This document shows positions 20,455 to 46,440 of a DNA stretch of 64,000 nt, piece by piece. The stretch spans positions 310,001 to 374,000 of the forward strand of contig NW_024589871.1 in assembly GCF_018446385.1 (NCBI RefSeq), read 5' to 3'. Each line of letters opens with the position of its first letter. Within the stretch, counting starts at the first letter, position 1. The translations under genes and the position numbers were made by a program. Below the pieces are notes generated by a model that saw only the letters and a program-made list of their open reading frames with translations, searched no databases and had not been told where the DNA came from. Origin of the DNA: Zingiber officinale. Lineage: Eukaryota > Streptophyta > Magnoliopsida > Zingiberales > Zingiberaceae.

Positions 20455-20540
20455 CCCAACGCTGTACCCCTCGTCTTTATTTTCCTACCCGAACAAACTA
20501 GGGTTTCGCGCAGGGGAGAGACTGCCGTCCTAATCTTGAG
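20455..20540 (+). promoter_or_regulatory. Promoter/5' leader of a housekeeping-type transcript
   Basis: ACGGCCCAACG contains a site II-type GGCCCA element, and AAACTAGGGTTTCG contains a telo-box-like AGGGTTT. This pair is typical of promoters of plant ribosomal-protein, translation and snoRNA-host genes. A splice donor-like GAG|GTAAAC follows at about 20540. No matching coding exon was found downstream, so the transcript may be non-coding or have tiny exons. Confidence 0.45.
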
Positions 20541-23500: not shown

Positions 23501-23889
23501 AAAGACATCAAGTTGTTACTCAGGTACCTATAGTTGTGAGTACTTCTAGATTTATCTACTGATGGAAAATTTTGATGAGACCAAGTCAATCATCCTAGAT
23601 TCAGTATTACCTTCTTTTAAAGAAGGTGAAGCAGGCCCGTAAGCTAAACCTTTTCCCATCGCCAAACTAATTTGACAATCATCCCATGATTGATCTTTCT
23701 TCACATAACTTGAGTAGGAGTCTAGGTGAGCGTAATTATCTTTGATTAAAAGATGAACAGTTCGACTAGGTGAACCAGGCCCATGAGCTCGGCCCAGTGG
23801 ACTTGTCTTCATAGCGACTCAAGTCTGAGTCTGCAGCGACCCAAACCCTTTCCCACCGCCGAGTAGAGCAACCCTCCGAAGCGGAAACC
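20541..23889. other. Region without an assignable gene
   Basis: Long T-rich and A-rich stretches resemble introns and untranslated exons. Short open frames occur but have no recognisable domain or coding bias. The only clear structure is the 109-bp tandem duplication at 22235-22440. If the promoter-like segment at 20455 is real, this stretch could hold a spliced non-coding RNA. The last 350 bp (23540-23889) are upstream of the small gene at 23890 and contain GGCCCA site II-type words near 23788-23802. Confidence 0.4.
22235..22440. repeat. 109-bp tandem duplication
   Basis: Copy 1 begins at 22235 and copy 2 at 22344, both starting CTCCTTTATTGGTC and sharing AATGATGTTGCTTTGAGCAT and GATGATCTGCAT. 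The copies are roughly 90% identical. The function is unknown. Confidence 0.85.
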
Positions 23890-24993: not shown

Positions 24994-25241
24994 TCATTTG
25001 CTTTTCTCACTTGTACTTTGTTTTCTGAATTCAATGTATTGCAATTTTGTTTGTGCTATAAATCAATTCCAATTTTTCAAAGCAATTTATACTAATCCCA
25101 AATGATTTTTACCCCATCAATTGTTTTTTACAATGCAAAATCATTAGTATTATGTCTGTTGTGTGAATGGAATACATAGAATTGCTATGATATCGGAATT
25201 TACCTCAATAATTGTTGCTAATTAACTAGTATAATAAATAT

Positions 25242-26013
25242 TGATCCGGTCCAAAAGTCGATGAGATAGAAAGTTAGGGATGGTCTCGTTGATCGCTCGT
25301 AGACTCTGTTCTGCCTTGCAAAACAGATGATATTAGTGTCCAGCCAAGGAAGGGGTTTCCGATGTTGGTCCTCCGACGTTCAAATCAGTCATCGACGATG
25401 ATGTAGAAGACGGAGCAACAATAATGAACACTGTAGTACAAATAGTATATATTGCGTATCTCTGTCGATACTTGGATTTCCTTTATATAGAGTTCTTGTA
25501 GCGCGTGTGCACGCTTCCCTAAGCGGGCACATTTCTTGAAGTTTCTCCTGAAAAGACTTGTCGGTAAAGTTTCTCTGACACAATACCTTAATAAGCCGAG
25601 CATATCTCTGATGTGATAGTGAAAACTTCCGTCGTACAATCTTCTTATTAACCATGCCTGGTGTCAGCGGCACTAACTCCCAAAAGGATGTCGAGAGATA
25701 ACACAGTGGGTCCATGGCTAGGCCGAGCGGATTAGCCACTCGGGCGGAGCTTCGTTGCGCCTGTGCCGCGTCCGCTCGACCGGAACTCTGCTGCGCCTGT
25801 GCCGAGTCCTATTGCCGGGCCGAGTGGGGTAGCTACTCGGATAGAACGTCACTGTGCTCGTGTCGAGTCCTGTTGCCGGGCCGAGCAAGGTAGCTGCTCG
25901 GCTTATATTTTGCATATCGTCCGACCGACCAATACGGTTATCATTCGTTTGGTCATATGATACCTGAATGTTGACTGCCCTAACTTTGACCACCGTAGCA
26001 ACTAACCCCTACA
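25242..26013 (-). repeat. Solo or truncated LTR of an unclassified LTR retrotransposon
   Basis: Read on the minus strand the segment starts TGTAGGGGTTAG and ends GACCGGATCA. It has a CTATATAAAGG promoter-like word (about 25480-25490) and, downstream of it, CGGAGGACCAACATCGG with CCCCTTCC, a layout common in plant LTRs. Upstream it is dense in GAGCAGCTACC/GCCCGGC-type repeats. The bases outside its two ends do not match, so no target duplication is present. Its right end is fused to a LINE. Confidence 0.65.
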
Positions 26014-28460
26014 AGGTGGGCCCCTGCTAGAAATGGAGTGCATCCTATAAACATAGGTCACCAAGAATCCCCTGCTAGAAATGCGGCATCGAACATGACA
26101 ATGTATATATTGATCGGTGGTCATAATAATGTCCATGTCTACCTTTTACAAATCTAAAGAAGAAGAATACGACCATGATTAGAGAAATCAAAGTTATGCG
26201 CATAACTCATACCTGCAAACCTTCTTTGTAATATTGGACTTAAAGAATTTTCATTGAGCTTAGTCTCCGTTAAGGCCATAACTTGGATATTTTTTTTGAT
26301 GGAGGAGGTGTTGCACTCCTCTATGCTTTAAGGACTTGTGAAAGCCCCTAATGTTCCAAGAGGTTAGCTTCATTTATCACCTCCTCAGGCTGATCGCACC
26401 CGTAATCTTGTGCCAATTGTAGGGGCTGGTGTGGTACTTCTCGTATCCCCACTCGCATTCACCGATGTTGTTGAGGGCAATGAGGAAGATGTCGATGCCT
26501 TAGATTTCGTATGAATAGTCTCATTTGCTGTCCTATTTTCTTGTGATGCCGTGGAGGATGAAGAAGAAGAGGGGGATGAGCTCCATTCACTTAAATGTGC
26601 CGGCTGCTTGACTACTTTCTGTGATTGCCCTTGCTCAGTTTCTCTAGGTACTTCCTCATTCGTTTCCACCTCTTGTGGGGTTTGTTGTTGTGGCACTTGA
26701 TTCTCTCCTTGGTGGGCTTTATTCTCACAGTTGGGAGGAACAATTGCCACTGGTATTGGGCTATTCACCAACACGATTGCAAGCTCTTATTGATCAACCG
26801 ACACCTCGATATTTGGTCTTTGTTGCATTGGTTGCCACTGTTGCCTTGTATGATTTCTATACCTTATTCTTGTCCTTCCACGACCTCTAACTGATTGAGA
26901 TCTCGGTCTACCATATCTTTGCACATTTGGATCAGTTTGGTCATTCTGTCCAGTCCTATTTTGTTAATGTTGATGTCCAACCGGTGCAACCCTTCCCCGT
27001 CAATTCTCCGCTCGATGACCCAATCTATTACATGTTTGGTAAAAGTCTGAAACCATTTGATATATTCTCAGATCCACTTGGGCACCAGTAAGGAGGGTGA
27101 TGGGGACCTCATGAACACGTTCACCAAAGTCCGGAACTTTCATCATGAGTCGTGCATATTCCAAACGTTTCCTTGTCTGTGTTAAATTGTCGGTGTACAA
27201 TGGCTTCTCAACTTCCGACCCAACTTGCTTAGCACTAATTGACTCCAACAATTTGGCGGAAGTTCATGAATTTGTATCCAAGCCGACACAAATCTGTTAT
27301 CCTCATCAAATAGAAAGTACTTGGACATTATCTTTAAGAACATCGAGATACCGTAGACAAAATAAGGTCCTCCATGGAGCACTCTTTGGCGATCTTCTTC
27401 TTTATCAAGCTTGTATACTAACCATCTACTCTTGTGTAGGAAGAACTTGTGAGGAGTCTTCCATTGAGAGCCAATGATTCATACCTTGTCTTTGCCCGAA
27501 TGACGACCCATTAAGCATCCAATTAAGCAAAACCCCATTGCATCCTCCACACTATCTATGTCTTCAAAAGAAAAGGCTAACCTTTCACCCTTTACTTCCT
27601 ACTGATCTAGGTTCATAGCAAGCTTAGTTTTGTGGTTGTTTTTGAGTGGCTGACCCAATCTTGCTTCTTTGGTGGCTACTCCTTCCTACCAACGTTCACA
27701 GCATCATTATCTTGGTTTGGCTGAGTGTTAGTTGCCAGACCATGTTGTTGTTCTTCTACCTCCAGCAAGGTCTCCTTCTCCCCCACCAGTGGTGGTGGTG
27801 CTGGAGATCTTCCTTGGGAGTAAAGTGGTTGCGGGGAAGCCCCTGTACGCTGTGGCGTGGCCACCTCACCAGGTTCCTTAGCCACATCATCTTGTGCTTG
27901 CCACATGGGATACTTCATTTGTCACCTCATCTTTGTTTGCCACCTCCCTAGGTGCCTTTTGACCAAAGTACCTCTTGCTCTTCCCTTTCCTTTAGCCATG
28001 CAAGAAGCGGAAACCAACTGTACGTTGGAAGTACTTCACCACTCGAGTTGGCCTATGAGAGCCCTTGACATTTGTTGTCTTTGACCAAACATCAAGTGAG
28101 TAGGTAGCCTCCACACTTCCCCCAACCACTTGGCAGCACAAGAGTGGAGGGGAGGGCTAGTCCTGGCCAGAGAAGATGGCTGAAGCCGGAGAAGTTCGTC
28201 GAAAGTTCGCCGGAGGTGCAAAAAACAATCGTATGACACGAGTGAAGAAAAATCAGTTATATGAACGCTTACCTTGTTGTTTGAGCCTCAAAATAGCCAC
28301 AAGAAAGCCTTCCATAGGTTGTGGAAGACGCCCATAGCGAGAACAAGCTCTCGTCCTACCGGTGAGGAAGAAAACCTCCTTCGACCATGATAGAGGACTG
28401 TCCACATAAAGAAAAACCATCGACGTACCAAGAATCCTAGAGAGAAGTTGGAGCTTCTCT
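26014..28460 (-). mobile_element. L1-type LINE, 5' half: ORF1 and the start of ORF2
   Basis: On the minus strand ORF1 begins near 27998 (MAKGKGRARGTLVKRHLGRW). It contains a DUF4283-like block (HGGPYFVYGISMFLKIMSKY, IQIHELPPNCWS, KPLYTDNLTQTRKRLEYARL), a region like the zinc-knuckle entry (DFYQTCNRLGHRAE) and a Ser/Pro-rich tail. ORF2 starts at 26373 with MKLTSWNIRGFHKSLKHRG, the first motif of the AP-endonuclease domain, and continues to the LTR junction at 26013. Several stops and frame changes show it is dead. The 5' leader reaches about 28460. Losing the 3' side is unusual for a LINE and results from the junction with the LTR at 25242-26013. Confidence 0.75.
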
Positions 28461-28469
28461 CACTAAAAC

Positions 28470-28640
28470 CTCCCGACTTATTCACTATTCATGTCTGTGC
28501 TTACTATTGCTCCGCTTTCTTCCATTGTTCCCGTGACTGACTTGAGTATTGGAGGACTAACGCCGGGGGCTCCTTCCCTAGCTCGGTACTGACATTTCTT
28601 GTGTTGCAGAGTGAAGCGAGATTTATATGTGATCAACCTA
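28470..28640 (+). repeat. Short LTR remnant
   Basis: The order GACTTGAGTATTGGAGGACT, then CGCCGGGGGCTCCTTCC, then TTTCTTGTGTTGCAGAG is typical of the R-U5 part of plant Gypsy LTRs. It resembles, in the opposite orientation, the 25340-25440 part of the LTR above. Only about 170 bp remain. Confidence 0.5.
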
Positions 28641-28652
28641 TAAGTCACATCC

Positions 28653-28824
28653 CTAGTTAGTATTCTTCACGATTTTCAAACAACATCAACGTATCATACG
28701 TAATTCCTTCACATAATTTAAAATGGACTATGGGAGACCTAGTTAGTATTCTTCACGATTTTCAAACAACATCAACGTATCATACGTAATTCCTTCACAT
28801 AATTTAAAATGGACTATGGGAGAC
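28653..28824. repeat. Exact 86-bp tandem duplication
   Basis: Units 28653-28738 and 28739-28824 read the same from CTAGTTAGTATTCTTCACG to GGACTATGGGAGAC. I see no mismatch, so the duplication is very recent or an assembly effect. Confidence 0.9.
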
Positions 28825-28829
28825 ATGTG

Positions 28830-29782
28830 AAGTGAATGCAAGTATTTTTCAATTAAGAAAAATACCATAGGTATATATGATCATTGCTTCTTGTGCTTTT
28901 CTGTAGTGACACTAGTATTTGGAGTTAAATTCGCTTATATTTAAATTTATTTTATAATATTGAATAAATATAAAAAATTGAGTTTATATTAAATTTGTTT
29001 TATAATTAAATAAAATAATATTGTTTTATTTAATTACTATAAAAGACACAATAAAACTTGAACATAAATGTGGGAATAGGCTAGTGTAATTAACGTTTAG
29101 AGAAAGAGGAGTTTGCCTTAAGTAATAGCCGGTAGGGTATTTTTTAAAATTTTTGTAATTATCTAAGGATCAAGTGATAAATCAATAGATTAATTTTTTT
29201 AATAGGTTGTTAATCTAAAAATAATGAGTGAATGGATTATCTGGTATGAATATTTCTTAATTTATCTTTTATCATGGATAAAATTTTTTCATGAAAATAA
29301 ACCTATCATCCCAAATTAGATGTACTTTGAATATTTATTACTAACTTAAAAATAAGAAGTTTGAATTATTTACAACGTGAGGAGTCTGAATCTCACTCCC
29401 AACGTATTATATTCGTGGAGATCAAATGATTTATTACGTTGGATTCGAAATTTATCATCATCCGTGACAAATTCCAGAATTAATCATAAAATTAAATATC
29501 TAAATTAAAAAATAATAATGGTAAATATATAGATAATTTAATTATTAATAAAAATATTTAAATATATTTTATTATTTAATTTAATTTCTGGTTCACGGGT
29601 TTGGACCTACTTTTTCTCAAGTCTGGTCAGCATCACTGTACTGTGCAGGCAGTCACTTTTGCCAGTAACAACACTGCATTGTGCATTACTCATCCCTTTA
29701 ACAAAAACCAGATTCTCCTGCAATTTCACGAGCTTAATCAAACTCTTTCGAGTCTATATTATTAGTAATTGTGCAACATTTA
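28830..29782. other. AT-rich non-coding DNA with one arm of a diverged direct repeat
   Basis: No gene is seen. The part 29590-29768 (GGTTCACGGGTTTGGACCTAC, later CAATTTCACGAGCTT and TCTATATTA) recurs in diverged form at about 30800-30945 (AGTTCACGGGTTTGGATATGC, CAATTTCACAAGCTT, TCTATATTA). The MITE at 29783-30761 lies between the two copies. Confidence 0.55.
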
Positions 29783-30761
29783 GAGTGTGTTTGGTTCAAG
29801 TTATCATGTATAACCTTGATTATGTGATTACTTAGGTAATACAACAAAAACTTGTTTGTTTGAAGGTTTTAATGAATATCCTAATTTAATATTTTACCGT
29901 ATTACCCTCAGTTACAAAACCAACTATACTTATTATTATTATTTATATTTTTTTTACTTCTCTTTTTCCTATATATTTTTTTAAAATTTTTTTAATGTTT
30001 TTATATTTTTATATTTTTTATATTTTTTATATTTTTTTTACATTTTTTACATTTTATTTTTTATTTATTTATTTATATTTAAATTTTTTAAATTTTTTTT
30101 TAATTTTTTAATTTTTTAAAATTTTTAATTTTTAAAATTTTTAAAAATTTTTTTAAAATTTTTAAAAATTTTTTTAAAATTTTTAATTTTTTAAATTTTT
30201 TAATTTTTTAAAATTTTTAATAATTTTAAATTTTTAAAATTTTTTTATTTTTAATTTTTTAAAATTTTAATTTTTTAAAAATATTTTAAATTTTTTAGAA
30301 AATTTTAAATTTTTTAAAAATTTAATTTTTTTAAAATTTTTTTAATTTTTTTAATTTTTTTTTAATTTTTTAATTTTTTTAAATTTTATTTTTTTATTTT
30401 TAAATTTTTTATTTTTAAATTTTTTTTATTTTAAAAATTTTAAATTATTTATTTTTAAAAAATTTTAAAATTTTAAATTTTTTTAACATTTTTTTATTTT
30501 TTTTTACATTTTTTATCCTTTTTTTCATATTTTTTCTTATCGGGGGTATTTTTGGTAAAAAAAAATCGTTAACCCCGGAATCAAGAAAAACCTTAGTTTT
30601 TTGAGGTTTTCCGATTCCGGGCTGTATAACTCTTTTGCTGACGTGTCAGGCATGAGACATTACTTGGGAATCATCGAATACCTAAACTAAACAAGGGTTT
30701 TGTTGATAATCTTAGATGGATAATCAAAATTATCAAGAATAATCCTGAACCAAACGCACCC
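29783..30761. mobile_element. PIF/Harbinger-type MITE with AT-rich core
   Basis: Left end GAGTGTGTTTGGTTCAA and right end CTGAACCAAACGCACCC form a 17-bp imperfect terminal inverted repeat. TTA flanks both sides (29780-29782 and 30762-30764), the target duplication of PIF/Harbinger elements. Ends of the GGGTGTGTTTGGTTC type are widespread in plant MITEs. The centre (about 29990-30540) is almost only A and T, made of alternating AAAATTTTT-type runs that can pair with themselves many times. No coding capacity. Confidence 0.8.
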
Positions 30762-30764
30762 TTA

Positions 30765-32569
30765 AAGTCATGTCAATAAAAATTTGTTTTTTTTAAAAAT
30801 TGATTTGTTAGTTCACGGGTTTGGATATGCTTTTCCTCGTGTCTTGTGCACAGTTTCATTGCAGTCCTTGACTCATCTTGTCAAGAGATAAATAATAATT
30901 TCTATAGCAATTTCACAAGCTTGCGCACTCTCTATATTAACTCCCAAGAAGACCGCTGATAATTAACATGCAAAATGAGATAAGAGAAACGCTGCATGAT
31001 TATTCAGAGGTAAGAAATGCTGAGAAATCAGAAAGTTTCTGAGTAGTTATATATATATTTAAGTCGATAGACTTCTCTTCAATATTTCACTATCATAGCG
31101 ATCATTCCATTCAATTGTTTCTGTTTTTTTTTTTTTTGTTTTTTTATTTCTTAGATGGTATGATCTAACTACTACATTCAATTCAATTTTATTATTCTCT
31201 TAATGTCTTTGCAGATCGCCGTGTTGTTTGTTTTCTGAGGTTATCATTGGAATGGGTGGAATTGGAAATATTATTAAAGGTATACTTTTCATATCTGAAA
31301 ATTAAATCGTTAGTTTGATTAGTTCATTTCTATAAGTTTCAGTTATTTTCAAAATTATTTCATTTCTTATTTATTACTGAGGCTTCTTTGTTTCTTTTTG
31401 GTTTTGGTTTACGTCGGATTTTTAAGTATAATTGCTCCGTGTTTAGAAGTTTTACACAATTGATACAAGATCCAGATGAATTTATATGTTAGTTAAAGTA
31501 AACTTGCTCATGTTTATTATAATTGATCCATGTTTAAGTATAATTTTTCCTCATTTACTGCTTTAACATATATTTCTAGTTTATGTTTATGTTGACTGTC
31601 TGTCACAATAAAGTTTAGGATTAGCGAGTGGTTGAAATTATATTGAAGCAGACGTCAAAATTTTCCATATATTCCCAGAATATGATTTTTCTTTTTAAAT
31701 TTTAATAATTTTATATTCTTATGCATGCAATATCTAATATTTTCGACAATTTATCAAAAGTCGTATATGGTATAATGTATTTATCAAAAGACGCATCACT
31801 CTTTTGTATATATCAAAAGACGTAGATAAGTAATGTGTAATACCCAATATATTCAATAGTCAAGTTCCCAGACATCCGAACTATTTTTTTTGGAATAACT
31901 TTGATTTAAAAAAAATAACTTCGATCATTTGTCTACCCCCTCCTTCGTAACATGCGAGTGTAGATCCAATTTTGTGGAGAAATCTTCCCTATTGTGAAAT
32001 CCTAGTTTAGTGACCTCGAGTGTTTCTCAAGCAGCATTAAACATTTCGGTGCTAAAAACCAGGACTGTTCGCGAGGCGCCAATGAAGGGTTCTAGGTTTA
32101 CGTCAATTATCTCGTCATAATGGTCCAAAGAAGTCGATCGGGTGTATCATCATCCTCTTCATATCAATTAGCTGTAAAGATATCATTTTACAAACTCTAT
32201 GATTTTAAGAAGCTCAACTAGTATGATTAAAAATTTTTAATTTTTAAAAAGTGTAGGATTCAGTTGATGTTGGACAGAAACTGTATTGGAACAGTGCCCT
32301 AGGTTACTTTAAAAAAAATTTTCAAGCATCCACGAAGAAAGGAACGCATCAAGGGTATGTTATTTTACATGACCGACACATAGCGCTGATCAAACAGTCA
32401 TCCTTTAGTATTTTTTTTTATATACACGATATGCAGCACATCCGTGAGATTTTGGCCAATATATTTCAAAATTAAGATTAGTAGTCAAACCTTTAGATTC
32501 TCAGGTACAATATATAATTTTGTATTTTAATCACAAAGTAATTGTATGGTAAAATTAAATTTTTGACTA
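30765..32569. other. Non-coding DNA with possible decayed exons
   Basis: 30800-30945 is the second copy of the diverged direct repeat. A leader-like ATG at 30968 with a donor at 31009 and an acceptor at 31214 with a donor at 31279 look like splice sites. The second piece can encode VIIGMGGIGNIIK, recalling an NB-ARC P-loop, but the chosen frame stops at once. No larger gene follows; the rest (31280-32569) is AT-rich and featureless. Confidence 0.35.
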
Positions 32570-32629
32570 AACGTGGGTCTGATACGATATCACATCAGGG
32601 CCATCGTGGGCCTAATACGATGTCATATC
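32570..32629. repeat. GGGCCTGATACGAT repeats, left of the Copia nest
   Basis: Copies such as GTGGGTCTGATACGATATCA and GTGGGCCTAATACGATGTCA precede the Copia nest. The last five bases, ATATC at 32625-32629, form the left target duplication. Confidence 0.75.
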
Positions 32630-34146
32630 TGTTGGGATCCTTTGGATGGCTAGAGAGGGGGGAGTGAATAGTCTCCACCAAAATCTTAATCTTTTCACAA
32701 AAATTCTAAGCGAGTTTGTTAGCGCAGCGGAAAATAAGCAAACAAAAAGAAATTATACGAGAAAAGAACCAAGCACCACTAACACAAGATATACGAGGTT
32801 CGGGGATAACTTGCCCCTACTCCTCGGCGTGTTCGTAAGGTGGACGAGCCCTTGATCTTCGGTAGATCACACCCCGGATGACTCCGGCTAATGAAGCTCT
32901 CCTTCTTGGTAAAGAAACCTCTCCACAAAGTCTTCGAACAGATTTAAAATGAAGCACACAAGACTTACAGATCACAGTGGCTCAAAGAAAATCGAAGTAA
33001 GCTCACAGCCACGAAGATGATGAAGACAGAGTCCAAGAACACAGCAAGCTCTCAACCGAAACACACACAGCTTTTCACTTGCTTCTTGTTCTCTTCTCCT
33101 TTCCAGCATACACTGCTTCTTATGTCTCTGCATTCAATCAGCCTGCACCGGATCGCTGCCAACCTGCACCGAATCCCTGCTGCAAGCTACGGCGTCGCCA
33201 ATCGCTTCTCTTCCTCTTCTTATTCTCTGAGCTCACACCAATAGAACCACGGTCTTCACTGGTGCCTCTGAGCTCGAACCAATCACCAGGAGTTAAGCCA
33301 ATCGCCGCCTGATCACTGCCAGAAACACAGCCAATCGCAACCTGTAGCCGTTGCTGCTTCAAATGCATTTGACGTAGAGAAAGCAGTGGAAAGATCCTTT
33401 GTCTCATTCCTTTGATGAGGCTTAATTTGAAACTAAGCACTGGTATGGTACCTGCAACCTGTATCTCCAAAAGACTGACAGCAGAAGGTTAAACAGAGTG
33501 CGAATCAGAAAATATCGGAGAAAGTGCATGCATAATGAACTTAACGTGGATCGGTCGTGAGACCGATCACGACCTGGACCGATCGGACAGCGGCTTGATC
33601 GGTGCGAGATCGATCGGTCGTCACGACCGTCGATTGATGTGGATCGGTCCATGGGCGATCCAGCACCCTATTGCGACATTTCTCACGATCGGTCTGCCGA
33701 TCGAGTTACTCGATGTGCTCGAGTGTTTCTGATCGGTCTGGGCCGATCGATTACTCGATGTGCTCGAGTGTTTCTGATCGGTCACCGGCATCGATCGTAA
33801 AATTTGTCTCACTAGATCGGTGCGGGACGATCGGTCATCAATATTCGGATCGGGTGCGTTGACCGATCCAACGCCTATGTGATACTAGGATTGGTCCGAG
33901 AACGAGCTACCGAGCCCTCTCTGACCTAATCCGGTCCAGAGAACGAGCTCCCGAGCCCTCTCTGACCTAGTCCGAAGAACGAGCTACCGAGCCTTCTCCG
34001 ACTTCACGTGCCAAGTTTCCAACTTGGACTTTTCCCTTCCACATGATCAACCTTGATCAGTAATCAATCCGAGTTCAATTAACATCTGATACAAACTTAA
34101 ATCAGTGTCAACATCAAAACAACAGCCAGGTCAGACTGTTTCAACA
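32630..34146 (-). repeat. LTR A (3' LTR of the left, minus-strand Copia unit)
   Basis: On the minus strand it begins TGTTGAAACAGTCTGACC and ends GGATCCCAACA. A polypurine tract (AAAAAGGGAGAGA on the minus strand) abuts its start, so it is a 3' LTR. It holds GATCGGTC/GACCGATC repeats (33545-33870) and GAGCTACCGAGCCCTCTCTG repeats (33900-34000). It lacks the TGAGTGAAGCCAGG array of the B LTRs. Confidence 0.85.
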
Positions 34147-35976
34147 ATCTCTCCCTTTTTGTTGTTTGACAACACGATTTAAGTTTAGATTAGAAATGTT
34201 CTTATTTTCATAATTTTAGGGGAATCAAGATCCTCCCCCTAAGATGAATATATCACGATGTAAGGAAGTCAATAACGGGAATCAAGATCCTCCCCGTTAT
34301 CTTCTCCCCTAAAATCAAACCTTCATACATCTCTAAACTTAGATATCCTCTCCCCCTTTGTCAAACACCGAAAAGGTGCTAATGGGGTGATAAGACTCAA
34401 AAGACTCCCCCTTAACCCATACTGTCTTTTTCTTAATGCACCTAGAATTCTCTCTAAGTGTATTATGAGATAGTAATAAAGAAATAAGAGGCAGTCAAGA
34501 CAAAGCATATGAACAGCATATCAATAGCCAATAGGAAATGACACATAAAGAAAAATAGGAAAATTAGTAGCATAAATAGATGAAATAAGCAAATATCCAG
34601 GTCATACAAAAATATCCAACAAAATAGCATCCAAAACACAGACAGTCAAAGTGACAAACAGAATGTATCAATCAATGTTCTCAACACGAGGAATATCATC
34701 ATCATCTGCGGGAGGCACGTAACCCTGAGACGGTATGCTGGAGTTCGAAGGTGGATGACCCGAGAAATGCTGGGGAGGTGGGTAGTTGGCCATCCAGCTC
34801 AGAAGCAGCTGTTGCGTCACCATTTGCTGACTGCGTAGATCATCATAGCGCTGGTCGATCCGAACGCGCAGTCCATGGAGCTTAGCAGCCAGTAGCTCAT
34901 CGTGCCGATCGAAGCGGCTCTCCAGCTCCGCAATCTGCCATCGCAGGTCAGGGTCGACCTCATCAGCAACAGGAGGAGGAGTAGCAACCTGTCGAGGAAG
35001 TGCCCGTGGTAACTCTCCCAGACCTCTCCCATCCTTCCATCGAACAGTCCCATCCTGTCCCAAGATACCGGACTTGGAAAATGCCCGTTTCCCAAGTCTG
35101 CAATCCTGTCTGACCATCTTCACTATCCTACCCTTAGACACATCTATTAGAAGGGTCTCGAGCCAATCTGTAATTATATGCCCATAAGATATATAAATAG
35201 TGGAGCTGCTAGGCTGAGTATATGAGATGATCGAAGAATAGATGCTCGACATGATATCAAAATCGAGACGCCGATGCAAACCATAAAGCATCAGCAGTGG
35301 TATGGTCGGATCTCTGCTAGAGGTTTGGATGTGATTGGAAGAAGACAGTTTGTGACTATCTTAAAAAGAATATAGTCAGGAGAAGATAGTCTCAGAGCCG
35401 CAAAAGTAGGAAACTCGACATCCAACTCATCCAGTCCATCCGGTCTAGGGTGTCCAAAGAAATACTTATAGATAGTGTCAGGTGATACATCAAGTGGAGG
35501 AGGTAACGGGTCTGGTAAATCAGGATAAATGGGAAAAGGATCTCCTGAACACATTCGGCAACCTAGATACCCAAAGAATTCTACGACGGAGAAATCGATA
35601 GTTCTCTTAGCGACTCTGGTCCTATAAGCACCATCACTGGTCTGATGAACATTGTTGTAGAATTCAGATACTAGGTCATAGTTGATGTCCCTTTCTAGGT
35701 AGACTAACTAGTCAAGTTTATAATATGCCAGGGTTTCGGATACAGAGGGACAAAACTCATCCATGTACTTTCGATCCACAGATCGACATGGGAGTAGCTT
35801 GAATGTCCTCTGTTGAAATGTTTGTTCAAACTGTCGGTTCGGGAATCTCGAAGAAGAAGAAGGTTGAGGTCGGGAGGGTGCCTGGGACTTGGATTTCTCA
35901 GTAGATGACTTAGAAGTACCCTCACCGGCTGATTTCTTCCTAAATAGGCCAAAAAGGGGACATGATCGGGACAAGT
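34147..35976 (-). mobile_element. Left Copia interior: extra-ORF region, arm of an inverted repeat
   Basis: The minus-strand 3' part of a Sirevirus-like interior. It encodes remains of the extra protein found between pol and the 3' LTR (pieces such as KLLPCRSVDRKYMDEFCPS and FFGHPRPDGLDELDVEFP), resembling a putative plant transposon protein domain. This is followed by a Pro-rich tail and several polypurine tracts. The coding part is broken in a few places. The whole segment is mirrored by 35981-37566. Confidence 0.75.
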
Positions 35977-35980
35977 ACTC
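35977..35980. other. Centre of a long inverted repeat
   Basis: The arms meet as GGGACAAGT-ACTC-ACTTGTCCC, leaving a 4-nt spacer. Similarity runs outward about 1.6-1.8 kb through both interiors, and in weaker form on into the LTRs. The arms differ by many substitutions and some indels, so this is not a simple fold-back sequencing artefact. Confidence 0.85.
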
Positions 35981-37566
35981 ACTTGTCCCGATCATGTCCC
36001 ATTTTTGGCCTATTTAGGAAGAAATCAGCCGGTGAGGGTACTTCTAAGTCATCTGCTGAGAAATCCACAGATGAGAAATCCAAGTCCCAGGCACCCTCCC
36101 GACCTCAACCTTCTTCTTCTTCGAGATTCCCGAACCGACAGTTTGAACAAACGTTTCAACAAAGGACATTCAAGCTACTCCCATGTCGATCTGTGGATCG
36201 AAAGTACATGGATGAGTTTTGTCCCTCTGTATCCGAAACCCTGGCATATTATAAACTTGACTCGTTAGTCTACCTAGAAAGGGACATCAACTATGACCTA
36301 GTATCTGAATTCTACAACAATCTTCATCAGACCAGTGATGGTGCTTATAGGACCAGAGTCACTAAGAGAACTATCGATTTCTCCGTCGTAGAATTCTTTG
36401 GGTATCTAGGTTGCCGAATGTGTTCAGGAGATCCTTTTCCCATTTATCCTGATTTACCCCATCCTTTATCACCTGACACTATCTATGAGTATTTCTTTGG
36501 ACACCCTAGACCGGATGGACTGGATGAGGTGGATGTCGAGTTTCCTACTTTGCGACTCTCCCCCGACTATATTCTTTTAAGATAGTCACAAATGGCTTCT
36601 TCCAATCACATCCAAACCTCTAGCAGAGATCTGATGTTTTATGGTTTGCGTCGGCGTCGATTTTGATATCATGTCGACATCTATTCTTAGCCTAGCGGCT
36701 TCACTATTTATATGTCTTATGGGCATATCATTACATTCCGATAGATGTGTCTAAGGGTAGGATAGTGAAGATGGTCGGACAGACTCGGGAAACGGGCATT
36801 TTCCAAGTTCAGATGGGGCAGATGGGACCGATGGAAGGATGGAGAGGTCCGCCACGGCACTTCTCGTGATGAGGCCGACCGACCGCGATGGCGATGGAGC
36901 TGAGAGCCGCTCGACGCGACGATGAGCCACCGTGGCTCCATGGATCGGCTCGGATCGACCAACGCTATGATGATCACGCAATACAGATGGTGACGCGCGG
37001 ATGGCCAACTACCCACCTCCACAAGATTTCTCGGGCCATCCACCTTCGAGCTCTAGCATGCCGCCTCGCAGATGATGATGATGTTCCTCGTGTTGAGGAC
37101 ATTGATTGATACATTCTGTTTGTCACTTTGACTGTCTGTGTTTTGGATGCTATTTTGTTGGATATTTTTGTATGACCTGGATATTTGCTTATTTCATCTA
37201 TTTATGCTGCTCATTTTCCTGTTTTTCTTTATGTGTCATTTCCTATTCGCTATTGATATGCTGTTCATATGCTTTGTCTTGACTGCCTCTTAGAGGGAAT
37301 TCTAAGAGTCTTTTGAGTCTTATCACCCCATTCGCACCTTTTCGGTGTTTGACAAAGGGGGAGAGGATATCTAAGTTTAGAGATGTATGAAGGTTTGATT
37401 TTAGGGGAGAAGATAACGGGGAGGATCTTGATTCCCGTTATTGACTTCCTTACATCGTGGTGTATTTATCTTAGGGGGAGGATCTTGATTCCCCTAAAAT
37501 TATGAAAATAAGAACATTTCTGATCTAAACTTAAATCGTGTTGTCAAACAACAAAAAGGGGGAGAT
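35981..37566 (+). mobile_element. Right Copia interior: extra-ORF region, second arm
   Basis: The plus-strand counterpart of the left arm. Its longest open stretch (35962-36585, about 207 residues) has KLLPCRSVDRKYMDEFCPS, LVSEFYNNLHQTSDGAYRTR and YEYFFGHPRPDGLDEVDVEF. This resembles the extra ORF of Sirevirus-like elements. Three AAAGGGGGAG-like polypurine tracts lie at about 37353, 37463 and 37552, the last abutting the LTR. The remainder is broken and shortened compared with the left arm. Confidence 0.75.
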
Positions 37567-39387
37567 TATTGAAACAGTCTGACCTGGCTGTTGTTTTGAT
37601 GTTGACACTGATTTAGGTTTGTATCAGATGTTAATTGAACTCAGATTGATTACTGATCAAGGTTGATCATGTGGAAGGGAGAAGTCCAAGTATGAGAACT
37701 TGGCAAGTGGAAGTCAGAGAGGGCTCGGTAGCTCATTCTCCGGACTAGGTCAGAGAGGGCTCGGTAGCTCTTTCTCTGGACCGGAAGTGAAAGACGGAGA
37801 GGGCTCGGTAGCTCGTTCTCTAGATCAGGAAGGCAGATGGAAAATCCTGGTGAGTGAAGCCAGGTGAAAGTCCTGGTGAGTGAAGCCAGGCAGATGGAAA
37901 GTCCTGGTGAGTGAAGCCAGGCAGATGGAAAAGTCCTGGTGAGTGAAGCCAGGCAGATTGGAAATCCTGGTGAGTGAAGCCAGGTGAAAACCCTAGTGAG
38001 TGAAGCTAGGTGAAAGTAAAAGTCCTGGTGAGTGAAGCCAGACAGTTGGTGAAAGTCCTGGTGAGTGAAGCCAGGCAAGGGAAAGTCCTGGTGAGTGAAG
38101 CCAGGCAGTTGGGAAGTCCTGGTGAGTGAAGCCGGGCAAGGAAAAATCCAGATGGATCAAGGCTGATCGGACATCTGGTGTTGTGAAGGTCAAGTAGGTC
38201 AAGGGAGTGACCGGATACTTGGCACGAAGAGAAAAGTCTAAGTGGGTCAAAGGGATTGACCGGACACTTGGTAGGGAGTCTTAGCAGGTCAAGGGAGTGA
38301 CCAGATGCTAAGCATGAGATACCAATATGTCAAGGTTGACCGGATATTGGTTTGGAAGGCTTGGGACTTGGTTTGGGCAAAAACCAAGCTCTGGATCGAT
38401 CAGTGGATCGATCCAGTGATACACTGGGTATCTGGATCGGTCTGGTGACCGATCCAGAGATACACTGGGTATCTAGATCGGTCTGGTGACCGATCAGTAA
38501 CCAAACAGTAGCCTACTGAGTGTTATCTGATCGGTCTGCAGACCGATCAGGAAACAACGATCAAAAGGCAAGAAGTTCGGGAGATAAGGAAGGGACATGC
38601 ATGCTGATCGGTCCCTGGACCGATCAGAGGAAGCTCTGATCGGTCCCCAGGACCGATCAGGGTCTTCCTGGACCGATCAGGATATGCCCTGATCGGTCCA
38701 GGTATATCCGTTGAGATTCAACGGGTATCTCCGTTTTCTTCGCTGTCTGCTTTGCAGGTGCAGTTGCAGGTTCAGACTATATAAAGGAGATCGAGGGCTG
38801 CTACAGGACACTTTTCTTCTGGTCCGAAGCTTCTGCTTCTACTTCATCTTCTTCCTCTCCTCAGCTGCTACCTCTTGCTTCTGTAAGAGCTTGCTGTTGC
38901 TGAGCTTTGCTGAGCTCTTCTTAGCTGAAGCTTCGCGTGAGCTTCCTCGGCTGGGGTCTCCAACAGTTGCTGCTGTATTTGGCCCGTGAAGTTGCTGCTT
39001 CATCAACAACCGACGAGAAGGCAAGATTGTTTGTTTTTACATTCATATTGTTGCTTCTTCTTGTGTATTTTTGTACTCCTATTCTTGCTGGTGCAAGAAA
39101 GATTGTGGCGAGGTTTCTCCACCCAGAAGGAGTATATATATTAGCCGGTTCTCCGGGGACTCATCCACCGACGGATTGATAGGCTTCGTCCACCTTACGG
39201 ACACGCCGAGGAGTAGGAGTATATCTCTGAACCTCGTTACATCGACGCGTGTTGAGGTTTGATTTCTCCGCTTTCGTTTTTATTATTTTTATTTTCGCTG
39301 CGCTAACCTTGATTTGTAGAAAGAAACGAATATTTAGGGTCGGCTATTCACACCCCCCCTCTCTAGCCGCGACCATCGATCCTAACA
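37567..39387 (+). repeat. LTR B1, mosaic of two LTR types
   Basis: The first 110 bp (TATTGAAACAGTCTGACC and on) match LTR A, while everything from about 37680 matches LTRs B2 and B4. It contains ten or so tandem copies of TCCTGGTGAGTGAAGCCAGG (37840-38140), GATCGGTC hairpins (38390-38700), TATATAAA at 38778-38785, and ends GATCCTAACA next to a primer site. Confidence 0.85.
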
Positions 39388-39727
39388 AGTGGTATCAGAG
39401 CAGGTCAAGGGAGTGACCAGATGCTAAGCATAAGATACCAATAGGTCAAGGGGGAGTTGACTTTTAGGGGGAGTTTTTACTCCTAAAGACTTGAGTGATA
39501 TGAGATTATCACTAAGTTAATTGTTGACCTTAGTATCAAGGGGGAAATTAAGGGTTTCAATGAAAGGTATGAGACCTTCATTAGAAAGAAAACTCTTGAC
39601 CTTAATTCACTCTTTTTGATGTGTGTCAAAAAGGGGGAGAGTGTAGGTTTGGGGAGAATGTTCAAGGAAGAAGATTAGAAAACCTAAGTTAGGTTAGGGT
39701 TTTGTCAAACATCAAAAAGGGGGTGAT
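39388..39727 (+). mobile_element. Minimal Copia interior with primer site and polypurine tract
   Basis: TGGTATCAGAGC at 39390-39401 is the tRNA-Met primer site. After it the sequence resumes LTR-like (CAGGTCAAGGGAGTGACCAG), then runs through repeated polypurine tracts (about 39632 and 39713) to the next LTR. All coding capacity is lost; the 340 bp are a large-deletion remnant. Confidence 0.85.
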
Positions 39728-41700
39728 TGTTGGTGCAACCTTATGTCAAGGTTGACCTGGTTGTCCCGACTCGAGTTGACCTGACTCGAGTTGTATTTTG
39801 ATGTTTGACGAGAACAGAAGAGTTGTATTTTGATGGGAGATTGTTGGTGCAACCTTAGGTCAAAGTTGACCTAGTTGACCTGACTCGAGTTGACCTGACT
39901 CAAGTTGTATCTTGATGTTTGACAAAAACAGAAACTTGGGAGGTTGTGGGTGCAACCCTTGGTCAAGGTTGACCTGGTTAACCCGAGGTGAGTTGATTTG
40001 GCACGAGAAAGTCCAAGTATGGAGACTTGGCACGGAGAAGTCCAAGTATGGGAACTTGGCAAGTGGAAGTCAGAGAGGGCTCGGTAGCTCGTTCTCCGGA
40101 CTAGGTCAGAGAGGGCTCGGTAGCTCGTTCTCTAGATCAGGAAGGCAGATGGAAAATCCTGGTGAGTGAAGCCAGGTGAAAGTCCTGGTGAGTGAAGCCA
40201 GGTAGATGGAAAGTCCTGGTGAGTGAAGCCAGGTAGATGGAAAGTCCTGGTGAGTGAAGCCAGGCAGACGGAAAAGTCCTGGTGAGTGAAGTCAGGTGAA
40301 AATCCTAGTGAGTGAAGCTAGGTGAAAGTGAAAGTCCTGGTGAGTGAATTCAGACAGTTGGTGAAAGTCCTGGTGAGTGAAACCAGGCAAGAGAAAGTCC
40401 TGGTGAGTGAAGCCAGGCAGTTGGGAAGTCCTGGTGAGTGAAGCCGGGCAAGGAAAAAATCCAGATGGATCAAGGCTGATCGGACATCTGGTGTTGTGAA
40501 GGTCAAGTAGGTCAAGGGAGTGATCGGATACTTGGCACGAAGAGAAAAGTCTAAGTGGGTCAAAAGGATTGATCGGACACTTGATAGGGAGTCTTAGCAG
40601 GTCAAGGGAGTGACCAGATGCTAAGCATGAGATACCAATAGGTTAAGGTTGACCGGATATTGATTTGGAAGGCTTGGGACTTGATTTGAGCAAAAACCAA
40701 GCTCTGGATCGATCAGTGGATCGATCCAGTGATACACTGGGTATCTGGATCGGTCTGGTGACCGATCCAGTGATACACTCGGTATCTGGATCGGTCTGGT
40801 GACCGATCAGTAACCAAACAGTAGCCTACTGAGTGTTATCTGATCGGTCTGCAGACCGATCAGGAAACAACGATCAGAAGGCAAGAAGTTCGGGAGAAAA
40901 GGAAGGGACATGCATGCTGATCAGTCCCTGGACCGATCAGAGGAAGCTCTGATCGGTCCCCAGGACCGATCAGGGTCTTCCTGGACCGATCAGGATATGT
41001 CCTGATCGGTCCAGGTATATCCGTTGAGATTCAACGGGTATCTCCGTCTTCTTCGCTGTCTGCTTTGCAGGTGCAGTTGCAAGTTCAGGCTATATAAAGG
41101 AGATCAAGGGTTGCTACAGGACACTTTTCTTCTAGTCCGAAGCTTCTGCTTCTACTTCTTCTTCTTCCTCTCCTCAGCTGCTACCTCTTGCTTCTGTAAG
41201 AGCTTGCTGTTGCTGAGCTTTGCTGAGCTCTTCTTAGCTGAAGCTTCGCGTGAGCTTCCTCGGCTGGGGTCTCCAACAGTTGTTGCTGTATTTGGCCCGT
41301 GAAGTTGCTGCTTCATCAACAGCCGACGAGAAGGCAAGATTGTTTGTTTTTACTTTCATATTGTTGCTTCTTCTTGTGTATTCTTGTACTCCTATTCTTG
41401 CTGGTGCAAGAAAGATTGTGGCGAGGTTTCTCCACCCAGAAGGAGTATATATATTAGCCGGTTCTATGGGGACTCATCCACCGACAGATTGATAGGCTTC
41501 GTCCACCTTACGGACACGCCGAGGAGTAGAAGTATATCTCCGAACCTCGTTACATCGACGCGTGTTGAGGTTTGATTTCTCCGCTTTCGTTTCTATTATT
41601 TTTATTTCCGCTGCACTAACCTTGATTTGTAGAAAGAAACGAAGATTTGGGGTCGGCTATTCACACCCCCCCTCTCTAGTCGCTACCATCGATCCTAACA
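39728..41700 (+). repeat. LTR B2
   Basis: TGTTGGTGCAACC to CGATCCTAACA, 1973 bp, preceded by a polypurine tract, so it is a 3' LTR. It holds two nested copies of the starting word (39728 and 39843), the TGAGTGAAGCCAGG array (40150-40450), GATCGGTC hairpins (40700-41030) and TATATAAA at 41091-41098. Over its shared part it is very close to B1 by eye. Confidence 0.85.
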
Positions 41701-43041
41701 TCCTGATCGGTCCAGGTATATCCTGATTGGTCCTGGGGACCGATCAGAGCTTCCTCTGATTGGTCCAGGGACCGATCAGCATGCATGTCCCTTCCTTTTC
41801 TCCCGAACTTCTGTTCGCTTTCTGATCTGTCTTCAGACCGATCAGATAACATACAGTCGCATACTGTTTGGTTACTGATCGGTCACCAGACCGATCAGAT
41901 AACCCAGTGTATCACTGGATTGATCCACTGATCGATCCAGCTCTTGGTTTTTGCCCAAACCAAGTCCCACGCCTTCCAAACCAATATCCGGTCAACCTTG
42001 ACCTATTGGTATCTCATGCTTAGCATCTGGTCATTCTCTTGACCTGCTAAGACTCCCTACCAAGTGTTCGGTCAATTCCTTTGACCCACTTAGACTTTTC
42101 TCTTCGTGCCAAGTATCCGGTCACTCCCTTGACCTACTTGACTTTCACAACACCAGATGTCCGATCAGCCTTGATCCATCTGGATTTTTCCTTGCCCGGC
42201 TTCACTCATCAGGACTTCCCAACTGTCTGGCTTCACTCACCAGGACTTTCCCTTGCCTGGCTTCACTCACCAGGACTTTCACCAACTGCCTGAATTCACT
42301 CACCAGGACTTTCACTTTCACCTAGCTTCACTCACTAGGGTTTTCACCCGGCTTCACTCACCAGGATTTCCAATCTGCCTGGCTTCACTCACCAGGACTT
42401 TTCCGTCTGCCTGGCTTCACTCACCAGGACTTTTCCGTCTGCCTGGCTTCACTCACCAGGACTTTCCATCTGCCTGGCTTCACTCACCAGGACTTTCACC
42501 TGGCTTCACTCCCAGGATTTTCACCTGGCTTCACTCCCAGGATTTTCACCTGGCTTAACTCACCAGGATTTTCCATCTGCCTTCCTGATCTAGAGAACGA
42601 GCTACCGAGCCCTCTCTGAATTAGTCCGGAGAACGAGCTACCGAGCCCTCTCCGTCTTTCACTTCCGGTCCAGAGAACGAGCTACGGAACCCTCTTTGAC
42701 TTACACTTGCCAAGTTCTCATACTTGGACTTCTCCGTGCCAAGTCTCCATACTTGGATTTTCTCGTGCCAAGTCAACTCACCTCGGGTCAACCAGGTCAA
42801 CCTTGACCAAGGGTTGCACCCACAACCTCCCAAGTTTCTGTTTTTGTCAAACATCAAGATACAACTTGAGTCAGGTCAACTCGAGTCAGGTCAACCAGGT
42901 CAACCTTGACCTAAGGTTGCACCAACAATCTCCCATCAAAATACAACTCTTCTGTTCTCGTCAAACATCAAAATACAACTCGAGTCAGGTCAACTCGAGT
43001 CGGGTCAACCAGGTCAACCTTGATCTAAGGTTGCACCAACA
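41701..43041 (-). repeat. LTR B3, partial, reverse orientation
   Basis: On the minus strand it begins TGTTGGTGCAACC at 43041 and runs through the tandem array and the GATCGGTC hairpins, then stops at 41701 before the promoter part. It abuts LTR B2 directly, end to broken end. Confidence 0.8.
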
Positions 43042-44244
43042 ATCTCCCCCTTTTTGATGTTTGACAAAACCCTAACCTAACTTAGGTTTTCTAATCTTTT
43101 TCCTTGAACATTCTCCCCAAACCTACACTCTCCCCCTTTTTGACACACATCAAAAAGAGTGAATTAAGGTCAAGAGTTTCTTTCTAATGAAGGTCCCATA
43201 CCTTTCATTGAAACCCTTAATTTCCCCCTTGATACTAAGGTCAACAATTAACTTAGTGATAATCCCATATCACTCAAGTCTTTAGGAGTAAAAACTCCCC
43301 CTAAAAGTCAACTCTCCCTTGACTAATAGGTAAAACTCCCCCTAAAGGTCAACTCCCCCTTGACCATTGCACCAACAATGTCTTGGAGAGTTTCAAGCCT
43401 TTAGAAATCCAAAACACCAACCCCCAGGTGAAATTTCAAACAAAACAGTCGAAAATCAGCAAGTTGGCACGCGCTGATCGGGCACCTGACCGATCAGACC
43501 TTCCCTGGATCGGTCACTAGACCGATCCACACTTCCCTAGATCGGTCCAGTGATCGATCCAGAGTGCCCTGGACCGATCAGAAACCCCTCTGATCAGTCC
43601 CCAACTCTGATATCAGAAGTTTCTGATTTTTCTACTTCCGAAATTCAGAAATCTCTCAAAAATCACATAAAATTTCAAAAACTGTAAAATTTTGAGGATA
43701 CATTCCTCATAACTTATATTATCACGGAAAAATAATTTTCGATGAAAATAACTTCCATTTTCAAAACTTGATACAAAGTTCGAAAAACTTTGAAATAGTT
43801 CAAGTTTAACTCAACTTTGTATCAACTTGCTCAATGATGAATGCTATCACTAGAAAAGCTTCATCAAGGTTTTTTAAATCAACTTTGAAATGATTTTAAA
43901 CCATTTAATTTAGGACCACAATCTTAGGGCTAAATGTACATGACTTGTACACAAGCTTTCCCTATGATCCTCCAATTTCGAATTAGGCTCATCTAGGTAC
44001 AAGAACTATGCACGTTGATCCTAACTCATCATCCTAATATCTCACACACATCTAAGATGTATCAAACACATCCAAGTCAATTTTGATGTGAGATATGGAT
44101 TTAGGTCATCTTAACTAGGTTCTCATGTATTTTCTAAACAACAATTTGATCTCCATATCAAATTGTGTTTTAGTCCTTAAATCAATTTCATTGATTATAA
44201 ATGCAAGAGATGATGACATGACATAAAATAATATCATAAAATAT
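43042..44244 (-). mobile_element. Copia interior fragment, reverse orientation
   Basis: A polypurine tract next to LTR B3 (AAAAAGGGGGAGATTG on the minus strand), then the same 3' non-coding interior as 39470-39727 (for example CTAACTTAGGTTTTCTAATC). Further sequence with GATCGGTC words follows, then unique AT-rich DNA up to 44244. No recognisable coding domain remains. Confidence 0.7.
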
Positions 44245-46142
44245 TGTTGGTGCAACCTTAGGTCAAGGTTGACCTGGTTGACCCGACTCGAGTTGACCTG
44301 ACTCGAGTTGTATTTTGATTTTTGACGAGAACAGAAGAGTTGTATTTTGATGGGAGATTGTTGGTGCAACCTTAGGTCAAGATTGACCTGGTTGACTTGA
44401 CTCGAGTTGACCTGACTCAAGTTGTATCTTGATGTTTGACAAGAACAGAAACTTGGGAGGTTATGGGTGCAACCCTTGGTCAAGGTTGACTTGGTTGACC
44501 CGAGGTGAGTTGACTTGGCACGAGAAAGTCCAAGTATGGAGACTTGGCACGGAGAAGTCCAAGTATGGGAACTTGGCAAGAGGAAGTCAGAGAGGGCTCG
44601 GTAGCTCGTTCTCCGGACTAGGTCAGAGATGGCTCGGTAGCTCGTTCTCTAGATCAGGAAGGCAGATGGAAAATCCTGGTGAATGAAGCCAGGTGAAAAT
44701 CCTGGTGAGTGAAGCCAGGTGAAAGTCCTGGTGAGTGAAGCCAGGCAGACGGAAAAGTCCTGATGAGTGAAGCCAGGCAGATTGGAAATCCTGGTGAGTG
44801 AAGTCAGGTGAAAACCCTAGTGAGTGAAGCTAGGTGAAAGTGAAAGTCCTGGTGAGTGAAGCCAGGCAGTTGGTGAAAGTCCTGGTGAGTGAAGTCAGGT
44901 AAGGGAAAGTCCTGGTGAGTGAAGCCAGGCAGTTAGGAAGTCCTGGTGAGTGAAGCCAGGCAGTTGGGAAGTCCTGGTGAGTGAAGCCGGGCAAGGAAAA
45001 ATCCAGATGGATCAAGGCAGATCGGACATCTAGTGTTGTGAAGGTCAAGTAGGTCAAGGAAGTGACCGGATACTTGGCACGAAGAGAAAAGTCTAAGTGG
45101 GTCAAAGGGATTGACCGGACACTTGGTAGGGAGTCTTAGCAGGTCAAGGGAGTGACCAGATGCTAAGCATGAGATACCAATAGGTCAAGGTTGACCGGAT
45201 ATTGGTTTGGAAGGCGTGGGACTTGGTTTGGGCAAAAACCAAGAGCTGGATCGATCAGTGGATCGATCCAGTGATACACTGGGTTATCCAAACAGTATGC
45301 TACTGTATGTTATCTGATCGGTCTGCAGACCGATCAGGAAACAACGATCAGAAGGCAAGAAGTTCGGGAGAAAAGGAAGGGACATGCATGCTGATCGGTC
45401 CCCAGGACCGATCAGGGTCTTCCTGGACCGATCAGGATATGTCCTGATCGGTCTAGGTATATCCGTTGAGATTCAACGGGTATCTCCGTCTTCTTCGCTG
45501 TCTGCTTTGCAGGTGCAGTTGCAGGTTCAGGCTAGATAAAGGAGATCGAGGGCTGCTACAGGACACTTTTCTTCTGGTCCGAAGCTTCTGCTTCTACTTC
45601 TTCTTCTTCCTCTCCTCAGCTGCTACCTCTTGCTTCTGTAAGAGCTTGCTGTTGCTGAGCTTTGCTGAACTCTTCTTAGCTGAAGCTTCGCGTGAGCTTC
45701 CTCGGCTGGGGTCTCCAACAGTTGCTGCTGTATTTGGCCCGTGAAGTTGCTGCTTCATCAACAGCCGACGAGAAGGCAAGATTGTTTATTTTTACATTCA
45801 TATTGTTGCTTCTTCTCGTGTATTCTTGTACTCCTATTCTTGCTGGTGCAAGAAAGATTGTGGCGAGGTTTCTCCACCCAGGAGGAGTATATATATTAGC
45901 CGGTTCTCCGGGGACTCATCCACCGACGGATTGATAGGCTTCGTCCACCTTACGGGCACACCGAGGAGTAGGAGTATATCTCCGAACCTCGTTACATCGA
46001 CGCGTGTTGAGGTTTGATTTCTCTGCTTTCGTTTCTATTATTTTTATTTCCGCTGCGCTAACCTTGATTTGTAGAAAGAAACGAAGATTTGGGGTCGGCT
46101 ATTCACACCCTCCCTCTCTAGCCGCGACCATCGATCCTAACA
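44245..46142 (+). repeat. LTR B4, right end of the nest
   Basis: TGTTGGTGCAACC to CGATCCTAACA, 1898 bp. It holds the tandem array (44670-45000), a shortened GATCGGTC block (45240-45450) and a promoter word TAGATAAA at 45533-45540, where B1 and B2 have TATATAAA. ATATC follows (46143-46147). The left flank AATAT does not match this, so B4 is not a simple solo insertion. Confidence 0.85.
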
Positions 46143-46440
46143 ATATCAGGCCCAACGTGGGCCTGATACGATACAATAATAGGCCTAACGTGTGCTTCAT
46201 ATGGCATCGTATTAGGCTCACGTTGGGCCTGATACTTTTGTATTTGTTGGTAGAAGTCTAATAATCATTTAACTTGGTCAGGTGTTCCGGTTGGCTTCAC
46301 AAGATGAGATGTTTCGTTGCTGCTTGGTATTGTAAACCGAGGAGCTTCAATTCCAATGAATTCAATTAAAGCATCCGGTGACCTCTTTCTAACATACTTC
46401 TCAAACAAAAAAAAAAACTACTAGATCAAGAATTGAGGAG
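46143..46440. repeat. GGGCCTGATACGAT repeats, right of the Copia nest
   Basis: Begins with the target duplication ATATC and continues AGGCCCAACGTGGGCCTGA, with two more inverted copies up to 46245. The rest up to 46440 is the leader of the Ulp1-type gene, with a short poly-A run near 46408. Confidence 0.7.

Follow-up and report, generated by a model that had tools for sequence, protein, structure and literature searches.

Mu killer of maize is an inverted partial copy of a transposon. The palindrome described here, located in a stretch of 64,000 nucleotides of ginger DNA (hereafter the window), differs from it in that the element in maize is a DNA transposon and here a retrotransposon, and in that no LTR promoter is directed toward the arms. 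In cereals, complexes of LTR retrotransposons which are flanked by target-site duplications (TSDs) and arise from template switching were described by Sabot and Schulman (2007; PMC1950507), who use the flanking duplications to separate template-switch complexes from the products of later LTR recombination. In yeast, fold-back inversions are, as outlined in PMC7467729, head-to-head duplications with a loop of a few nucleotides and in this respect resemble the palindrome. Unlike at the ginger locus, however, target duplications or LTR ends are not expected from this chromosomal process.

With the cereal complexes, the ginger locus has in common several LTRs, a shared internal LTR (37567-39387, placed between the interior of one family, A, and the primer site and interior of a related family, B), two related parents and a flanking 5-bp duplication (ATATC, exact in 5 of 11 empty sites). 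In contrast to those complexes, two complete cores are lacking, and only 3′ parts of A and short interiors of B were found. Further, the outermost LTRs of the published examples are alike and in the same orientation, whereas the block in ginger has a reversed A LTR at its left and a forward B LTR at its right side; it contains inverted parts, and its outer ends are both U5, from different families. The strings “inverted”, “head-to-head” and “palindrom” are absent from the main text of PMC1950507, and at the level of titles and abstract openings no report of an inverted TSD-flanked complex was found in the literature. By the duplication test, the block would fall into the template-switch class, although not as a standard member.

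The head-to-head palindrome

A sequence-only reading of this DNA had described two head-to-head 3′ parts of a Sirevirus-type Copia element, and these were found as described: the left arm (34147-35976, minus strand) and the right arm (35981-37566, plus strand) are both 3′ interior of family A. The left arm is 95.6-97.3% identical to the A copies compared; the right arm was identified by self-BLAST, comparison with A copies and comparison of the arms. In the self-BLAST of the window, 35021-36849 matched its own reverse, and 37306-37820 matched 34407-33898 reversed. The innermost 16 bp on either side of the central ACTC are fully complementary (region analysed: 35960-35996). A single strand of 161 nt spanning the centre has a predicted fold of −146.2 kcal/mol, compared to an average of −40.4 kcal/mol for 200 shuffled sequences (z = −25), which excludes chance for the inverted repeat and bears out the foldable hairpin proposed earlier. 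A 22-base string across the junction gave a single, exact match in the whole 3.09-Gb assembly (3,090,333,446 bases, 211 contigs), even when up to three mismatches were allowed; the control, the same string read backwards, gave 9 and 6 matches at ≤3 mismatches. The window sits on an unplaced contig of 540 kb (C90). The inverted repeat is real as assembled.

The spacer ACTC (35977-35980), read before as four nucleotides between the arms, is present, but most of it is not a spacer. Since all 10 ordinary A copies compared have CACTCTCACTTGTCCC at the break site, CTC (35978-35980) belongs to the right arm, and the A at 35977 is the single extra base. The left arm stops at ACTTG and the right arm extends to CTCACTTG; the two breaks thus lie 3 nt apart on element A, approximately 1.8 kb before its LTR. 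An LTR is also found outside each arm, as had been stated. However, the right one is not purely a 3′ LTR, as it has an A-type start and is B-type in its remainder, and the primer-binding site at 39390 which follows it shows that it is also a 5′ LTR.

Pieces of one family A copy (L013) matched the Pfam families Pol_BBD, GAG-pre-integrase, SH3 and RVT_2 above the curated cut-offs, and a CCHC knuckle and rve (integrase core) below the curated cut-off. Integrase precedes reverse transcriptase in these pieces, which is the order of a Copia pol. A third ORF of 476 aa, a candidate for the env-like third ORF of a Sirevirus, lies after the reverse transcriptase of L013 and gave only a sub-threshold match to Transposase_32; a Pfam search of two ORFs of the window returned no family. 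Three GGGGGAG purine tracts are located in 37320-37570, the primer site TGGTATCAGAGC follows an A LTR in another copy (L018), and CCCCCC occurs near the A LTR end. Several purine tracts, a TATCAGAGC primer site and a C-rich LTR end are named as Sirevirus criteria in PMC2829016, and family A fits this description by its purine tracts, its primer site for tRNA-Met and the C-rich end of its LTR. In the genome, family A has 2299 first-look candidate places, 40 of which were scored.

The mosaic block and its target-site duplication

The sequence-only reading had missed that the palindrome belongs to a larger insertion, which is flanked by a target-site duplication: it forms the left portion of a mosaic of 13.5 kb, built from families A and B and spanning 32630-46142. 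The block coordinates were read from the sequence; for some B parts, the limits used in calculations deviated from them by as many as six bases. For comparison, 5 of 10 long A loci fetched and 6 of 11 B loci were used. Adjacent to the left duplication copy (ATATC, 32625-32629), the block starts with a reversed A LTR, U5 outward (32630-34146, minus strand), which is 90-98% identical to A copies. Beyond the two arms follows the LTR at 37567-39387 (plus strand), which, in comparison with A and B copies, switches from A-type to B-type at approximately 37672-37830. Next are a short B interior (39388-39727, plus strand; comparison with B copies) with the primer-binding site at 39390-39401 and a purine tract, and a forward B LTR (39728-41700; self-BLAST and B-copy comparison). 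A reversed B piece with unique edges (41701-44244, minus strand) comprises a partial LTR (41701-43041), in which about 700 bp are missing on the U5 side, and, at 43042-44244, a 3′ interior of 1.2 kb. The block is completed by a forward B LTR, U5 outward (44245-46142; self-BLAST and end sequence), and adjoins the right duplication copy (ATATC, 46143-46147), recognized from the flank overlap.

Of the two further inversion junctions, 41700/41701 has the window as its sole exact match, and four matches with 3 mismatches are without an LTR end; 44244/44245 has one genome match, which is in the window. In both, LTR ends are joined to internal sites, and the neighbouring bases are unlike (TCCTG and AATAT). 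No LTR with an A start and B body was detected elsewhere using 37500-38400 as query, as all non-window matches begin at query base 173 or later (40 scored of 7468 candidates). A and B are alike where the LTR switches type. The switch string was rejected as stand-alone proof of chimerism because it is common in the genome (381 matches at ≤2 mismatches, 192 forward and 189 reverse, window included), and the chimeric LTR consequently rests on the 37500-38400 search.

The left and right flanks are adjoining parts of one host repeat. Flank alignment gave 14 loci, corresponding to 11 distinct places, to which both flanks could be aligned right up to their inner ends. Five of these 11 empty places show a flank overlap of exactly 5 bp (ATATC); in the remaining 6, extra bases are found between the flanks (28, 28, 28, 61, 94 and 108). 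The runs of 28, 28, 28, 61 and 94 fit whole units of a 33-base host minisatellite, and that of 108 is not among them. As ATATC recurs in this minisatellite, the evidence is the 5-bp phase and not the pentamer alone. The left flank (window 20000-31768) was matched well only by an unplaced contig (C178; 88-93%), and no allelic site was found on chromosome-size contigs, where the left flank reaches 65-89% and long matches 75-83%.

An ordinary LTR retrotransposon insertion starts with U3 and finishes with U5. The outer ends of the block are TGTTGGGATCC (U5 of A, reversed) on the left and ATCGATCCTAACA (U5 of B, forward) on the right, and the outer LTRs come from different families accordingly (A left, B right). 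With U5 ends on both sides, the orientation must flip inside the block, and the first flip is the head-to-head centre. The reversed U5 end of A and the U3 start of B both read TGTTGG, so that an edge rearrangement at this point would look the same as an integration end.

Several other features were observed in the window. The stretches 58837-59665 and 63160-64000 form a direct repeat of 97.4% identity, maybe an LTR pair around a gag-like ORF, in which a CCHC knuckle was read by eye at 62515-63105. A 318-bp segment (7161-7478) matches its own reverse complement at 75% and is perhaps a small inverted-repeat element. A tandem array at 13762-14156 resembles that of the B LTR and, together with a reversed primer-site motif at 14954-14965, is perhaps an old relative.

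Arm divergence, kinship and a second locus

The arms had been called diverged, and so they are, but unevenly: identity is 97-99% in most 150-bp bins and 65-93% in most of the middle ones. Overall, identity amounts to 93.2% of aligned columns; the right arm lacks 259 bases and has 26 extra. Most of the divergence falls in one stretch of the right arm (36462-37085; hereafter the patch), which is marked by small deletions and by changes from CWG to CSG, together with 30- and 34-base deletions near 37288-37304; over 969 sites outside the patch, the arms show 21 differences. Compared to another copy (L010), the patch has 11 CWG sites left of 38, and 11 changes are from CWG to CSG. Of 23 deletion runs, 13 touch CWG when L010 is the reference (random mean 9.4, P = 0.076), and 16 of 23 do so when it is the left arm (random mean 10.4, P = 0.0065). 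The rows of this test were both arms, L021, L024 and six ordinary copies. L021 and L024, which are located elsewhere, have a like signature in the equivalent stretch with other deletions and 5 and 8 CWG-to-CSG changes, respectively, compared to 0 or 1 in the left arm and the six ordinary copies. The error-like stretch in these two copies is the equivalent of window 36780-37000.

We rejected the idea that the right arm derives from a special subfamily, as its 15-bp insertion occurs only in the window (genome search with 3 mismatches allowed). No right-arm-like copy above 80% over the whole of 36500-37300 was found besides the window (40 scored of 2653 candidates), and shorter matches of 86-91% mainly cover the part after the patch. 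The patch looks like residual base-calling error at CWG sites, probably methylated ones, that polishing missed. Judged from the sequence, CWG-rich repeats are likely a general quality problem of this assembly. One ginger assembly is nanopore-based and short-read polished (3.1 Gb, 22 pseudochromosomes, 219 scaffolds), as summarized in PMC8342452, and another was built from PacBio reads, as stated in PMC8342499; the assembly analysed here is probably nanopore-based. The conclusion that diverged arms make an old palindrome is, thus, weak, since most of the divergence lies in an error-like patch whose signature recurs in L021 and L024. In noisy long-read assemblies in general, arm divergence is a poor palindrome clock, as base-calling residue can contribute to it.

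The kinship of the arms was assessed using private variants, i.e., those absent from 20 compared copies. Outside the patch, 11 occur on the left arm only, 7 on the right arm only and 1 on both; 2 further variants on both arms lie inside the patch. The right arm shows the family base where the left arm has private ones. These numbers indicate that the inversion did not arise by late copying of an already old arm. However, at least one private variant is common to 17 of 171 row pairs outside the patch, so that this count does not prove the arms to be kin. A tree groups left and right arm with a support of 83, and the nearest row to the left arm is the right arm, while that to the right arm is L013 (both with L019 left out). 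Private changes of the left arm, in the sense strand of the element, comprise 18 G>A versus 1 C>T, compared to 63 versus 61 summed over 15 other copies (both arms, L021 and L024 left out); the Fisher P of 0.0003 is uncorrected for the 19 rows examined. For the pair count and the G>A count, the short L019 and the mosaic L028 and L029 were left out. In the left LTR, private changes are 4 G>A versus 2 C>T. The excess in the left arm may be a trace of deaminated single-stranded minus-strand cDNA or a polishing artefact.

The forward LTRs of the block, i.e., the LTR with A start and B body (c) and the two B LTRs, differ by 3.2% (c/B1), 3.2% (c/B2) and 4.1% (B1/B2), and pairs involving the reversed B LTR differ by 4.7-5.6%. 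At a substitution rate of 1.3e-8 per site per year, LTR divergence would suggest a block age of the order of 1–2 million years, and this is an upper bound if the sequence still contains errors.

A scan for loci with A pieces on both strands covered 21 loci (20 distinct places) and flagged two, one of them (L017) for LTR repeats only. The other, L028, on contig C7 near 141.14 Mb (with L063, L064 and L065: C7:141139765-141152118), is another head-to-head A pair. Its reversed arm ends at position 5999 of A (numbered on L013), followed by a 500-bp forward piece (7085-7584) and a forward arm starting at 5993, i.e., its arms break within 6 nt of each other on the element. Over 601 columns, 12 differences separate these arms, with 6 changes private to each, and the arms have 3 common non-majority bases, 1 of which is absent from other copies. 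The outer ends are U5 reversed and U5 forward, as in the window, and the adjoining 5-mers are unlike (ATTTT and AGTCA). The last 15 or so bases are missing from its middle LTR, which continues into A interior at 3937. L028 supports a recurring process of symmetric breaks and argues against a single clean integration in every case.

Origin and possible role of the block

According to the reading we prefer, to which we give about even confidence, the palindrome forms the left side of a single abnormal insertion of a retrotransposon, in which an inverted, template-switched cDNA integrated once. RNAs of A and B would have been reverse-transcribed abnormally within one virus-like particle, where synthesis of two co-packaged A minus strands would have halted at points no more than 3 nt apart. 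The inverted cDNA would result from their end-to-end joining, in which one strand served as primer, the other as template, and one untemplated A was added. The strand may have run on through LTR and primer site into B sequence, like an over-long plus-strand strong-stop product, and more template switches or self-integration could account for the chimeric LTR, the B part sharing it and the reversed B piece. Integrase would have inserted the product via its two U5 ends. Junctions 41700/41701 and 44244/44245 are not accounted for step by step in this model, and at the natural break site no RNA structure which would stop reverse transcriptase was found (fold z = 0.57).

The exact 5-bp duplication in 5 of 11 empty sites and the U5 ends at both edges argue for a single integration, and the centre and the two other inversion junctions are exact only here, as expected of a single origin. 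Breaks 3 nt apart in the arms and not more than 6 nt apart in L028 argue for minus strands joined at a common stop, and the G>A bias of the left arm would fit deaminated minus-strand cDNA, i.e., an origin at the cDNA stage. The private variants of the arms outside the patch (11 and 7, with 1 in common) and the TSD-flanked template-switch complexes known from cereals also count in favour of this reading. On the other hand, the 28-108 extra bases in 6 of 11 empty copies, the unlike 5-mers at L028, the different families of the outer LTRs, the weak kinship of the arms (17 of 171 pairs; right arm nearest to L013) and the low G>A bias of the left LTR argue against this one-step origin.

The main rival, which we consider rather unlikely, starts from an ordinary forward B insertion at ATATC, U3 start on the left, in which replicative repair at microhomologies later swapped approximately the first 340 bp of the 5′ LTR for the A palindrome, with entry at TGTTGG and exit in a U3 stretch common to A and B. 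In its favour, B's U3 start and A's reversed U5 end have TGTTGG in common, A and B are alike at the switch in the right LTR, and no unusual cDNA ends are needed; however, its left breakpoint must by chance have hit the 6 bp next to the duplication, and a separate cause is required for the symmetry of the centre to within 3 nt. Another rival is a chromosomal fold-back inversion, where a break in an A element leads to a hairpin or sister-chromatid fusion, which is copied and then switches into B. Loops of 3–4 nt are known in yeast lacking MRE11 or SAE2, as outlined in PMC7467729, and L028, with a 500-bp templated insert and non-matching 5-mers, is consistent with this process. Nevertheless, we regard it as unlikely here, because neither the 5-bp duplication nor two U5 ends are predicted, and because arms with 1 common private variant outside the patch place the event not much later than the insertion.

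Finally, the centre might be absent from the plant and an artefact of the assembly or of a fold-back read. The contig is unplaced (540 kb), the assembly appears to be nanopore-based, and the right arm is rich in deletions, in line with the drop of nanopore accuracy in second arms of inverted duplicates stated in PMC7229812. Yet the right side, unlike a read fold-back, passes from A into B and finishes at the same host duplication, private variants of the left arm face the family base in the right arm, and the similar locus L028 lies on a chromosome-size contig, making an artefact very unlikely in our opinion.

A role as silencing locus similar to Mu killer, in which the palindrome transcript folds and feeds siRNAs against family A, had been suggested before. 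The predicted fold of the centre is very stable, and possible targets are many (the 2299 first-look candidates of family A, 40 scored). However, transcription from an LTR follows the orientation of the LTR, and both LTRs flanking the arms are consequently directed outward (left reversed, right forward). The reversed B LTR fragment (41701-43041) ends at the equivalent of 40996, short of the TATA near 41091 in the first B LTR, and has no TATA[AT]A match. In the same scan, which is weak evidence, the left A LTR had no match either and the last B LTR a downstream match only. With outward LTRs and a truncated reversed B LTR, a hairpin transcript would need read-through from outside. We therefore consider such a role highly improbable; the block appears to be without evident function, and hairpin RNA could be formed by read-through only.

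Returning to the one-step insertion, a wider version of this reading is tentative and in our judgment doubtful: that plant Copia integrase can insert inverted cDNA by two U5 ends, and that such cDNAs recur from joined co-packaged minus strands, a built-in source of hairpin loci that could self-trigger silencing of the family without chromosomal rearrangement. If the one-step reading is true, a retrotransposon can integrate through two like (U5) ends, and inverted repeats able to feed small-RNA silencing may arise during retrotransposition and not only by later breakage.
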